From: a virus
DNA length: 29,941 nucleotides
Virus record (IMG/VR): IMGVR_UViG_3300024180_000023
Span: 1-29,941 of that record
Strand: one strand, 5' to 3'
In this document: piece after piece, positions 6,272 through 12,941 of the stretch
Numbering within the stretch: position 1 is the first letter of the stretch
Layout of the letters: the number at the start of each line of letters is the position of its first letter
Notes under the pieces: generated by a model
Told to the model about the DNA's origin: nothing
What the model saw: the letters and a program-made list of their open reading frames with translations, nothing else
The model's database searches: none
Made by a program: the position numbers and the translations under genes

Positions 6272-6823
6272 TTACAGACCGAACGTGTCTTTGACGTCTG
6301 CAACTGATACGTCGCTGGAGATGTCTTCGAAGTCAGATTCGACGTTGACGGATGATGCAACGAATGGCTCGCCCTTGGCGGCATACTGAACAGCTTCAAG
6401 GCTGGCGATGATGCGCTTGCCATAATTGTTGTTCATGCCCCAGAGGTCGAGCACCACGTTGACGTAGTCTCCACTTACTGGGCTGTCGAGGTCGCCCTCG
6501 GCTACCGGCTGGCGCTGGCGTCCTACGATGACAGGACGCTTCTTGTTGGCTCCGCTGATGATGACATTGTCTGTCCATCCATCGTAGCCTTTGTCGTTGC
6601 CGTCTTGGATCGGCAGCTTATCCGTTGGCATCTCGCTGCCGTTGAATTTCTCTGCCTCAATCTGGCGCACAACCTTCTTGAATGCTGCCAGGTTGGCTTT
6701 GCCATCCTCGGAGCTTGGATCAATGATGAATGATGCGCTGTACTTTGGGTCACCGTCAAACTTGCTGACAGCGGTGAAGAGATCGCAGAAGGACAGACGG
6801 ACGTTATTTAACTTTAACTTCAT
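6272..6823 (-). CDS. Phage single-stranded DNA-binding protein (DUF2815 type)
   Basis: 183 residues. The N-terminus MKLKLNNVRLSFCDLF and the KYSASFIIDP segment are typical of DUF2815, a family of phage proteins related to the T7 gp2.5 OB-fold ssDNA-binding proteins. The C-terminus is acidic (SDFEDISSDVSVADVKDTFGL), as expected for an SSB that recruits partners through its tail. It would coat single strands during replication and recombination. It lies between the DUF2800 nuclease and the helicase group, as in many phage early operons. A leader of 168 bases separates it from the DUF2800 gene; no Shine-Dalgarno is seen. Confidence 0.82.
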   Translation of the reverse strand: MKLKLNNVRLSFCDLFTAVSKFDGDPKYSASFIIDPSSEDGKANLAAFKKVVRQIEAEKFNGSEMPTDKLPIQDGNDKGYDGWTDNVIISGANKKRPVIVGRQRQPVAEGDLDSPVSGDYVNVVLDLWGMNNNYGKRIIASLEAVQYAAKGEPFVASSVNVESDFEDISSDVSVADVKDTFGL

Positions 6824-6991: not shown

Positions 6992-8017
6992 TTATTCAAG
7001 CACGTCGAAGTCGTTGGCTGGGTTGTATGCCTCGCCAGCCATTAGCTTGGGCTTGCCCTCTGGCTGTATCCAGCCCTTGACGTCTGGCGACAGCTTCAGT
7101 GCCTGTGTTGGCGTGATTGGCTTGCTGACAACAGCCTCTGTTGGCTCGATGCCGTTGGCTACCATCTCAGCCACTGGGTCAACGTCTTTGTCCCATGCTT
7201 TGGCTGCGCGTCTGCCTGTGGTGATGGATACGCCATTGATAGCCTCGCCAGCGTTGACTCGGCTGAATAATGATGCCTCGATGGCGTTGAGTGCTTTGGT
7301 GATTTGTGACTTGTGTGAGAATAGATATGCTTGCTTCTCGTCGCTGAGACGCACCATGTCGCCGGTGAGGTCTTCGAAGTTCTCAAGCAAGCTGGCGGTG
7401 TAGGCTTTGCAGAACGGCTTGCATGGACACCAGCGGCACGCATCTTCTGATGCTACCAGCTCATGTATGTAGTCGTTCATTGCTGCCTCTGCTTTGACGC
7501 CGATGACTGAGGCAAGCGCGTCTATCTGGTCAACAGAGAGTGACCATGACTTTGCCTCGTCATTCTGAATGATGGTCATGGTGAATGTCTCAGTTGATGT
7601 CATGCCCATGCCGTAAGCATAGATGGCAAGCTGCCAGTTGTTGACTGCATCGACGGGTATAGAACCTGTCTTTAAGTCAACCACGTGGACTGTGTCTTCG
7701 GTTCTGATAACGCAGTCAGCGTAACCATGCTCGTCTCTGCTGTAGAATAGTGGCACGCGAGCCTCTACGATCATCTCTGCGTCTTTCTGCGCTGCGAGCT
7801 GTCTACAGAAGCTGACATAGAACTGTGTTGCTTCACATGGCTCGCATTCTCCTTTGAGTGCTCGCTCTGCATTGTCGTGTAGCTCGGTTCCTAGGTTGGC
7901 TGCTTCGCTGCCCTCGTCTTTGGGGATGAGGTCACCGAGTCTCTTTTCTAGCGTCAAACTGCCAGGACAGGTTGACCATTTTCTGTAGCCGCTTGGGCTT
8001 GCTTTGGCGTGTTGCAT
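6992..8017 (-). CDS. DUF2800 RecB/Cas4-like PD-(D/E)XK nuclease
   Basis: 341 residues. The RecB-family nuclease motifs are visible: GTELHDNAE (H47), GYADCVI (D101), HVVDLKTG (D114 and K116), and NWQLAIYAYG (Q129) as the QxxxY motif. Four cysteines, C17 and the cluster at C194, C197 and C203 (with C199), are placed like the iron-sulfur cluster of Cas4/AddB nucleases. The opening SPSGYRKWSTCPGSL is the usual start of DUF2800. It is probably a 5'-to-3' exonuclease for phage recombination, working with the ssDNA-binding protein just downstream. The start lies nine bases after the stop of the small upstream gene. Confidence 0.88.
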   Translation of the reverse strand: MQHAKASPSGYRKWSTCPGSLTLEKRLGDLIPKDEGSEAANLGTELHDNAERALKGECEPCEATQFYVSFCRQLAAQKDAEMIVEARVPLFYSRDEHGYADCVIRTEDTVHVVDLKTGSIPVDAVNNWQLAIYAYGMGMTSTETFTMTIIQNDEAKSWSLSVDQIDALASVIGVKAEAAMNDYIHELVASEDACRWCPCKPFCKAYTASLLENFEDLTGDMVRLSDEKQAYLFSHKSQITKALNAIEASLFSRVNAGEAINGVSITTGRRAAKAWDKDVDPVAEMVANGIEPTEAVVSKPITPTQALKLSPDVKGWIQPEGKPKLMAGEAYNPANDFDVLE

Positions 8018-11094: not shown

Positions 11095-11361
11095 AGCGAA
11101 AGTTCATTACGCAAAATGATTATAATAATGAACTTTCGCCTTTCGTTTTTCAATGATAAAGCTATATTACATAAGGAAAGAGAGCGAAAGTTCATTATCC
11201 CAAAAAGCTCATCCACAAGGGTCTCGGAGAGGGGGTGTGTGCTGCTAAAAGCACACCCCCGACCCCTCGCGAAAGAGAAAACGCAAAGTCAAATTTCCCT
11301 TAGAGGTTGCTTTCGTTTTTCGCTCAGATGACAAATGGACAAAAATGATAAATGACAAATG
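11093..11361. repeat. Repeat-rich non-coding stretch, possible replication origin
   Basis: Several repeat families lie within 270 bases. AGAGCGAAAGTTCATTA occurs twice exactly (11093-11109 and 11181-11197), with its reverse complement at 11126-11139. CTTTCGTTTTTC occurs at 11140-11151 and 11310-11321. A GC-rich hairpin GGGGGTGTG / CACACCCCC lies at 11231-11260. ATGACAAATG occurs at 11328-11337 and 11352-11361, with a one-mismatch copy at 11345-11354, like short iterons. An open frame at 11116-11331 runs through these repeats and has no coding signs. The position right after a RepA-like helicase gene fits an origin, but no function is shown. Confidence 0.45.
11096..11150 (+). terminator. Long inverted repeat with T-tract after the primase-helicase
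   Basis: Perfect 14-base arms GCGAAAGTTCATTA (11096-11109) and TAATGAACTTTCGC (11126-11139) flank a 16-base loop, two bases after the stop. CTTTCGTTTTTC follows (11140-11151). It could end the early message, though the T run is seven bases beyond the stem. The left arm recurs at 11181, so a protein-binding role is equally possible. Confidence 0.5.
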
Positions 11362-11366
11362 ACATC

Positions 11367-11395
11367 TTGACAATACTGGTCAATATGGCAATATC
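11367..11395 (+). promoter_or_regulatory. Promoter candidate upstream of the HNH leader
   Basis: A perfect -35 TTGACA (11367-11372) lies 17 bases from a weak -10 AATATC (11390-11395). The predicted start near 11402 is just before the structured leader at 11408. An inverted repeat TTGAC-AATACTG-GTCAA (11367-11383) covers the -35 and could be an operator using the same half-site letters as the dyad at 8238. Confidence 0.4.
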
Positions 11396-11407
11396 AGTCA
11401 TCAACCT

Positions 11408-11499
11408 GTTGCGGGCTGATAAATTACATTTCGCCTCACCTGGCATCCGAGCAGCCCGCAACGCTTCTCTTTAATTCGGATACTGGGTGAGGCATTTTT
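11408..11499 (+). ncRNA. Structured leader RNA, possible H-type pseudoknot with terminator-like end
   Basis: GCCTCACCTGGCATCCGA (11433-11450) pairs almost throughout with TCGGATACTGGGTGAGGC (11476-11493; one C-A mismatch, two G-U pairs), and ATTTTTA follows at 11494-11500. Within its loop, CAGCCCGCAAC (11452-11462) is the exact complement of GTTGCGGGCTG upstream (11408-11418). The order of the four arms is that of an H-type pseudoknot, with connecting loops of 14, 1 and 13 bases. The HNH start codon is at 11503. It may be an attenuator or riboswitch-like control element; no known RNA family was recognised. Confidence 0.55.
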
Positions 11500-11502
11500 A
11501 TT

Positions 11503-12051
11503 ATGACAAAGACATGCAATAAGTGCGGGGAAAATAAAGACACTAGTTTTTTCTATAAACACAAAACAGGCCGATTGGGTGTTGATGGTAGATGTAAGCC
11601 GTGCAGGGTTGGTGATGTGGTGGATTACCAAAAAAGAAATCCAGAAAAAACAAAACAACACAAGAGAAATACATACACAAGAAATAGTCGCAAATACAAA
11701 GACAGAGCGATTGCCTATGCTAAAATTAAATATGCCAATGATCCGGAGTTTAAGGTGACGCAAACCCTAAGGACTAGGTTGCGCCTCGCACTAAAAGGCA
11801 CGTGTAAAGCAGACACCACGAAGTCACTGCTTGGTTGCACCTACGAGGAGGCACGCGCACACATCGAGGCACAGTTCACTGAAGGCATGAGCTGGGACAA
11901 GATGGGGGTGCACGGCATCCACATAGACCACATCAGACCATGTGCTAGCTTCGATCTTACTGATCCAGAGCAGCAGCGTGAGTGCTTTCACTACACCAAC
12001 CTTCAACCACTATGGGCAAAGGACAATCTAAGGAAATCAGACAAGTGGTAA
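11503..12051 (+). CDS. HNH endonuclease with N-terminal zinc ribbon
   Basis: 182 residues. Four cysteines (C5, C8, C31, C34) form a zinc-ribbon-like N-terminus (CNKCGENKDTSFFYKHKTGR). A basic linker of about 60 residues follows, then the HNH core: H140-I-D-H143, IRPCASFDL, and N166 in TNLQPLWAKDNL. This layout is common among free-standing phage HNH homing endonucleases, which nick or cut DNA and spread themselves. Base composition changes within the gene: 18 G+C of 60 at 11641-11700 but 34 of 60 at 11881-11940, suggesting a mosaic. The gene is preceded by the structured leader, and its start codon sits three bases after the T run. Confidence 0.82.
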   Translation: MTKTCNKCGENKDTSFFYKHKTGRLGVDGRCKPCRVGDVVDYQKRNPEKTKQHKRNTYTRNSRKYKDRAIAYAKIKYANDPEFKVTQTLRTRLRLALKGTCKADTTKSLLGCTYEEARAHIEAQFTEGMSWDKMGVHGIHIDHIRPCASFDLTDPEQQRECFHYTNLQPLWAKDNLRKSDKW

Positions 12052-12104: not shown

Positions 12105-12941
12105 ATGAAGATTTGCAACAAGTGTAAAACGAGCAAGCCGCTTGGTGAGTTTAATAAAAGCAAGCAAAGAGAAGACGGCAGACAGACAATGTGCAGGTGT
12201 TGCGCGAAGCAATACCGCGAAGCTAACAAGGATGCAATTGCAGCCTACCACAAGCAACACTACCAAACCAACAAGGAGGCAATTTTAGAGAGGCACAAGC
12301 AACACCACCAAACCAACAAGGACATAATCAACGAGAGAAAAAGGCAATACTACCAAACCAACAAGGAGACAATTTTAGAGAGGCATAAGCAATGGAACCA
12401 AGCCAACAAGGAGTATCGTGCAGAGAAAGCAAAGCAATACTACCAAGCCAACAAGGAATCGCTTACCGAGAAGCGGAAGCAACGCTATCAAGCCAACAAG
12501 GAGGCGGTTGCGGAGCAGGGCAAGAAATATAGAGAAGCCAACAAGGAGGCGGTCAAAAAAAAGAATAGGCGATACGCGAGAGGGCGCAGAGCCAAGGATA
12601 CTCTATTCAGACTAACTCAAAACATTAGAAGCTTGATTCGCCACTCACTCAGAAACGGCGGCTACAGCAAGACATCAAAAACCCATGAAATCCTCGGCTG
12701 CTCATTTGAAGAATACCAACAGCACATTGAGGCACAGTTCACAGATGGCATGAGCTGGGAGAGAATGAGTGAGATCCACATCGACCATCGGCTGCCTGTC
12801 TCAGCAGCAACCACAGAGGCAGAGATGCTTGCATTGAACCACCACCGCAACCTTCAGCCGCTGTGGAAGTCCGACAATCTGGCCAAGGGCAGCAGCTACT
12901 GCCCCAAGGAGCTGGCAGCTTACTTGGCTAAATATAAATGA
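12105..12941 (+). CDS. HNH endonuclease with eight 15-residue repeats
   Basis: 278 residues from the ATG at 12105, chosen because it places the cysteine motif C4-x2-C7 and C30/C33 at the N-terminus as in the upstream paralogue; an in-frame ATG at 11982 would overlap that gene. Residues 38-157 are eight tandem copies of a 15-residue unit like YQTNKEAILERHKQH, basic and helical. The HNH core follows: H225-I-D-H228, LPVSAATTEAEM, N249 in RNLQPLWKSDNL. The C-terminal domain is close to that of the gene before it, so the pair arose by duplication or repeated insertion. The repeats may act as a DNA-reading linker. Confidence 0.82.
   Translation: MKICNKCKTSKPLGEFNKSKQREDGRQTMCRCCAKQYREANKDAIAAYHKQHYQTNKEAILERHKQHHQTNKDIINERKRQYYQTNKETILERHKQWNQANKEYRAEKAKQYYQANKESLTEKRKQRYQANKEAVAEQGKKYREANKEAVKKKNRRYARGRRAKDTLFRLTQNIRSLIRHSLRNGGYSKTSKTHEILGCSFEEYQQHIEAQFTDGMSWERMSEIHIDHRLPVSAATTEAEMLALNHHRNLQPLWKSDNLAKGSSYCPKELAAYLAKYK
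12216..12575 (+). repeat. Eight tandem 45-base coding repeats
   Basis: The region encodes eight in-frame copies of a 15-residue unit with the core Y-Q-x-N-K-E/D. The codons for ANKGAG-type cores (CCAACAAGGA in most copies) are strongly conserved between copies at the DNA level, while the second half of each unit varies. This points to unequal recombination changing the copy number. Confidence 0.85.

Follow-up and report, generated by a model that had tools for sequence, protein, structure and literature searches.

In order to establish whether the stretch directly in front of a phage HNH endonuclease gene is an RNA element, and what such an element would do there, we analysed the leader of one such gene in an IMG/VR virus record of 29,941 bases (hereafter the window) together with its relatives in other phages. 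Phages commonly carry freestanding endonuclease genes as mobile elements, and to our knowledge the controls described for such genes are simple hairpins, in T4-like phages. We find the RNA structure of the leader to be well supported. The leader is probably an on/off control element of a kind not described before, for which we favour the reading of a cis-acting transcription attenuator (probability roughly 0.55). A covarying kissing loop combined with a terminator, found in other phage groups as well as in unrelated phages of Bacteroidota, would represent a novel type of control.

The preliminary description of this locus had placed two interleaved stems ahead of the gene, and all of its coordinates proved correct to the base. 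The element GTTGCGGGCTG at 11408–11418 is the exact reverse complement of 11452–11462 (stem S1), whilst the near-perfect hairpin of 11433–11450 with 11476–11493 (H2) has 17 of its 18 positions paired, with two G-U pairs and one C-A mismatch. The loops of 14, 1 and 13 nt, and the T-rich run leading to the HNH ATG at 11503, were likewise as described. The features of the leader are as follows.

11367–11372, plus strand: TTGACA, a −35-like box seen in the sequence, whose sole partner is a weak −10.
11389–11394, plus strand: CAATAT, a weak −10-like element, the counterpart of which in a related phage (L038) is TAATAT; each ends 6 nt before TCAACC.
11400–11420, plus strand: region of hairpin H1 (AUCA/UGAU in the folds), the loop of which contains GUUGCGG; its left end, 11400, is the left edge of the blastn homology with L038 and the predicted RNA 5′ end.
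11408–11418, plus strand: 5′ strand of S1, GUUGCGGGCUG (that is, GTTGCGGGCTG), with a 7-nt core at 11408–11414.
11433–11450, plus strand: 5′ arm of H2, a terminator-like hairpin.
11452–11462, plus strand: 3′ strand of S1, CAGCCCGCAAC, within the H2 loop, with the 7-nt core CCGCAAC at 11456–11462.
11476–11493, plus strand: 3′ arm of H2, which includes GGGUGAGG; the differences from L038 in this arm retain pairing.
11494–11502, plus strand: U-rich run AUUUUUAUU (T-rich DNA ATTTTTATT) between H2 and the start codon; a U-rich run is found in all relatives.
11503–12051, plus strand: endonuclease-VII-like HNH gene of 182 aa (P0001; phrog_1035, 1.8e-22), with relatives found by tblastn.

With an S1 core of GTTGCGG/CCGCAAC, the region 11402–11505 has a minimum free energy of −32.4 kcal/mol (z = −3.15), and 1 of 200 shuffles folded equally well. 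The downstream protein matched the phage endonuclease-VII-like HNH profile in PHROG, whilst a Pfam search returned 0 families and no RuvC-type domain was found. The promoter that had been proposed stood only in part: the TTGACA box is present, but its CAATAT partner is a poor −10 (3/6 positions, 16-nt spacing) and a sigma-70 consensus scan returned no promoter on the plus strand.

In 60 Markov copies of the window, four cases arose of two perfect stems, one of at least 11 bp and the other of at least 8 bp, that interleave. Chance would thus give such stems in about one of every fifteen 30-kb windows, and a single window is only suggestive. What lifts the leader above chance is its recurrence, both as the same leader in L038 and as the same arrangement upstream of 10 out of 90 related HNH genes.

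The L038 leader is located at 6678–6783, ahead of that phage's own HNH gene; the N-terminal part of the L038 primase is 58 % identical to that of the window. Using blastn, DNA homology between the two phages was found to span 11400, near the expected RNA start, to 11525, just within the gene. Identity is 88 % across the leader; in the HNH gene it is 58 % (DNA), in the aligned part of the primase 65 % and in the exonuclease gene 79 %, and over the 300 bases upstream it is 43 %. S1 is the same in both phages, and H2 differs by three pair-keeping substitutions (U-A to U-G, G-U to G-C and G-C to G-U) and by a U inserted in the 5′ arm that is matched by an additional A in the 3′ arm. In a third relative, L037, an IrrE-like gene comes after the primase gene, and both the leader and the HNH gene are missing.

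Several further features were seen in this neighbourhood. A conserved CCCCCCTACC...GGGGGGTAGG element lies directly before the IrrE-like gene in L037 and at 7419–7470 in L038, where it follows the HNH stop codon. The intergenic region after the primase gene of the window (11095–11364), which is common to L037, contains inverted GCGAAAGTTCATTA repeats, a G-rich hairpin near 11219–11262 that is retained in L037 and, just upstream of the leader, AAATGACA repeats; this region is possibly a replication origin.

Upstream regions of HNH relatives, gathered by protein similarity only (n = 90), were searched with a fixed detector that called hairpins of at least 13 bp ending in a T-run, provided that an internal segment of 7 nt or more had an exact complement in the DNA no more than 60 nt upstream. 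Ten regions were positive (the window's phage, L038, L197, L200, L202, L217, L244, L245, L246 and L250), every match adjoining the ORF start, and the element was absent from the remaining 80; across 40 Markov controls the mean was 0.33 and the maximum 1. The structured RNA of the preliminary description is therefore one that occurs repeatedly before HNH genes. A strict detector, demanding 7-nt loops on both hairpins, returned almost only the same loci, with one match over 914 kb in the null, whilst a loose complementarity scan was uninformative (203 real matches versus 256 in the null). Members form about four or five sequence groups, with several loci per group related to one another. As the sampling covered relatives of one HNH family, association with other genes (see phage Freya, below) is likely to be under-counted.

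Within the L197 group, H1 and H2 both have 7-nt loops that are perfect complements of each other, the pairs being GTTGCAG/CTGCAAC, ATTGCGG/CCGCAAT, GTGCGAG/CTCGCAC, GTACGAG/CTCGTAC and GTAGGAG/CTCCTAC. Over eight leaders of one group the kissing helix is 100 % paired, with changes on both sides at 5 of 7 pairs, and the H1 and H2 stems covary too. The covariation score was matched by 0 of 500 shuffles, and slid registers collapsed, none coming near. Seven distinct 7-mer pairs are all exact complements (1 of 5040 re-pairing permutations) in loci that had been picked for the presence of a complement; the fair test is the enrichment of 10 in 90, to which the covariation set adds the stems. Conservation or covariation of both helices across homologous leaders, a check that had been proposed at the outset, was thus observed. 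Furthermore, of the two strands it is the HNH-sense one that gives the better fold in 10 of 11 leaders (z from −2.1 to −6.2), and G-U pairs are more numerous on it in 11 of 11, as expected for an RNA read in the HNH direction. A covariance model of the L197-type leaders (R2) found one strong copy per record, at the HNH gene, in eight L197-type phage records; a model built from two leaders (R1) recovered only those two, because relatives share structure and not sequence. The folds of L197 and L200 contain a P1-like helix adjoining the H2 5′ arm, which is not general.

Other properties of this group were also recorded. L197, L200 and L202 have a consensus promoter (TTGACA-N16/17-TATAAT/TATAAA) on the strand opposite HNH that runs through the leader DNA, with its −35 within the upper stem of H2 and the whole spanning H2 and the linker; it apparently serves a leftward operon, and may explain part of the sequence conservation in these three. 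The H2 loops of L197-type leaders are mostly C-U-N-N-N-A-C, resembling tRNA anticodon loops. Upstream of the leader, L197 and L244 share a conserved non-coding stretch of ~110 nt (...ACAGAGGTCAAGGACGTTGCCTTCTGGCGATCAACCCAGCGGCGTCGG...) for which there was no Rfam match.

The element was also found in isolated phages. It was present in 1 of the 12 HNH-bearing phage records first examined, that of Flavobacterium phage vB_FspP_elemoA_10-9C, where it (CCGCCAAG/CTTGGCGG) lies directly ahead of the HNH gene, and in 0 of eight further regions. Five elemo records (four isolates) contain the leader, all of them HNH-bearing, and 63 sister records match the flanks only. Judged by the empty site, the promoter element, leader and HNH gene lie inside a single insertion right behind the preceding gene's stop codon, and an elemo phage has either both the leader and the HNH gene or neither. 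The suggestion that the RNA travels with the nuclease therefore holds for these phages, but not for the unrelated Polaribacter phage Freya, 11 records of which carry a leader 87–88 % identical to that of elemo directly before a gene for an MBL-fold metal-dependent hydrolase (phrog_392), beside recT. With isolated Flavobacterium and Polaribacter phages that have the leader and sister isolates that do not, the question is open to bench testing. Two pairs of H2 show compensatory double changes between elemo and Freya. In both, TATATTTG is found directly before H1 and fits TAHHTTTG, the −7 promoter element of Flavobacterium (PMC6847099); given an element of this type, the RNA start would fall at H1. 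A search of 395 Bacteroidota genomes for the elemo HNH protein gave no match at E ≤ 1e-8, which shows little.

These leaders also bear on the type of fold. The H-type pseudoknot first proposed is geometrically satisfied in the window, but in elemo and Freya just 2 nt lie between the S1 3′ strand and the closure of H2, too few, as a second bridging loop, for a coaxial H-type knot with the H2 stem. As such, a kissing-loop complex is a more apt description of the leader than a strict H-type pseudoknot, and it fits the whole set better; across relatives, S1 appears from the sequences to be a loop–loop helix between two hairpins with loops of ~7 nt.

According to the attenuator reading, RNA from a promoter just upstream of 11400 would fold H1 first and H2 second, and H2 with its U-run would form an intrinsic terminator between promoter and start codon. 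Many transcripts would then end near 11494–11502 as a structured RNA of ~95–100 nt, and nuclease mRNA is predicted to require read-through. Between them, the H1 and H2 loops would make a perfect 7- to 11-bp kissing helix, the making or breaking of which could alter terminator folding and thereby set nuclease expression; candidate signals are a metabolite, a protein such as the nuclease itself, or an RNA acting in trans. Four points of this scheme are our inference: that transcripts terminate at H2, in which direction expression is affected, that the kissing helix does the switching, and that a signal acts on it. What we observe is the order promoter–H1–H2–U-run–ORF in the members, covariation of all three helices, the strand that is read, the repeated occurrence ahead of HNH genes, the joint presence or absence in elemo phages, and a G+C-bearing hairpin with U-run between promoter and start codon in the window, L038, the L197-type leaders, L246, L248, elemo and Freya. 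In the window, the H2 loop is long (25 nt) and the U-run is broken by an A, so termination there may be inefficient; a simple terminator scan of the window did not report H2 with its U-run. S1 and the arms of H2 have no base in common, so the two are probably not a classical terminator/antiterminator pair.

It is doubtful, by comparison, that H2 acts as a translational lock which S1 strengthens or releases. Such a lock would account for the Shine–Dalgarno (SD)-like GGGUGAGG being paired in the 3′ arm of H2 (unpaired probability ≤ 0.015) and for H2 ending 9 nt ahead of the ATG, and has precedents in T4 (PMC3014915) as well as in the reduced initiation that mRNA structure causes in SD-less Flavobacterium (PMC6847099). 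However, the window's phage uses SD sequences little (most listed starts have none), and burial of GGGUGAGG is therefore weak evidence for a lock. In L197, L217, L244 and L248, moreover, the SD-like sequence comes after the U-run, outside H2, which therefore looks like a terminator and not an SD lock; the U-run that follows H2 throughout would be unneeded by a lock. The SD position outside H2, together with the little use of SD in the window's phage, favours transcription attenuation.

We also consider it unlikely that the actual product of the locus is a small phage RNA of ~100 nt, ended by a terminator of its own and acting in trans (for example on the nuclease protein or a host target), behind which the gene simply happens to lie. 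The leader is conserved far beyond the gene, both between two elemo isolates (100 % over 103 nt versus 61 % aa for the HNH proteins) and between the window and L038 (88 % versus 58 % nt), and Freya has the same leader before a different gene; these observations, and the terminator-like hairpin at the RNA end, would be in line with such a product. Nevertheless, the leader sits at an ORF start codon in all members found, and its loop sequences vary among groups, with no conserved trans-acting motif seen.

An ordinary terminator that shields the nuclease gene from upstream read-through, with S1 merely stabilizing it, is quite improbable: a terminator-like H2 just before a mobile gene and the lack of an evident ligand-binding core would suit it, but all members found show covariation of S1 with its complementarity kept exact, and in elemo and Freya the promoter element is upstream of H2, where a terminator would act on the gene's own transcript. 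DNA-level palindromes (an operator, recombination site or nuclease target), brought to mind by the perfect inverted repeat of the S1 arms and the adjoining nuclease gene, are extremely improbable, given that G-U pairs favour the sense strand, that minus-strand folds are weaker in 10 of 11, and that the U-run is on one strand only and in a fixed position directly before the ORF.

Tentatively, a wider reading is possible, that of an undescribed mobile class of phage RNA: a kissing-loop element with a built-in terminator that would move between phages with a nuclease gene or alone, sensing a signal or acting in trans. If true, the element would represent either a new class of riboswitch-like RNA or one that partners endonuclease-VII-like HNH enzymes.

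No known family had been recognised in the preliminary description, and a search of the window against Rfam 15 agreed, with no match at the gathering score; the leader and seven relative loci gave sub-threshold matches only, nothing being credible at relaxed thresholds. Searching viral contigs with degenerate DNA patterns returned only the window's phage and L038, the other matches being unrelated palindromes, and a genome-contig scan gave at least 120 stretches, with no leader relative among the matches listed. The window has GCCTCACC/GGTGAGGC and CCTGTTGC in common with L040-type terminators; by eye, the latter show no S1 partner, and the likeness was judged coincidental.

The leader nevertheless resembles several described systems in part. 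Hairpins before phage homing endonuclease genes (T4 I-TevI, Aeh1 mobE and T4 segB) hold expression low (PMC3014915), and the leader shares with them an inhibitory-looking RNA hairpin right before a phage endonuclease gene. Those hairpins bury the SD or AUG, whereas the leader ends in a U-run and its loop pairs with an upstream hairpin, and several members carry an SD-like sequence outside the hairpin. Type III toxin–antitoxin loci such as ToxIN and CptIN have the same order of promoter, pseudoknot-capable RNA, Rho-independent terminator and nuclease gene (PMC5086642). We rejected this assignment: all leaders inspected contain a single H1–H2 unit in place of tandem repeats, the knot's 3′ strand lies inside the terminator loop, and there is no ToxN, AbiQ, TenpN or CptN toxin, the proteins being HNH endonuclease-VII-like (in the window, 0 Pfam families and a PHROG match to endonuclease VII) or an MBL-fold hydrolase. 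HEARO/OMEGA RNA beside IscB is also a structured RNA directly upstream of an HNH-containing ORF, but the leader RNA is only ~100 nt, no HEARO covariance model matched it, and the 182-aa protein has no IscB-like RuvC plus HNH Pfam match. HEARO and a group I intron were both rejected, with neither an Rfam match nor a matching protein. The T4 gene 32 leader is likewise a phage 5′ leader with a pseudoknot near the start of a DNA-metabolism gene, but that pseudoknot is positioned ~67 nt upstream, where it nucleates the binding of protein, with no terminator involved. The RNAI and RNAII of ColE1 are kissing hairpins with fully complementary 7-nt loops; here, in contrast, both loops are in one RNA, and one belongs to a terminator-like hairpin.

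Finally, some observations concern the window at large. Most of its gene starts lack SD sequences, a pattern that suggests an SD-independent host, e.g. a member of Bacteroidota, for this phage, and its terminase is nearest to that of Verrucomicrobia phage P8625 (25 % identity). Directly after the first HNH gene lies a second (12105–12941), which has no leader, and the middle of which consists of diverged repeats of ~15 residues (YYQTNKE...-like), visible as self-matches spaced 45 bp apart.
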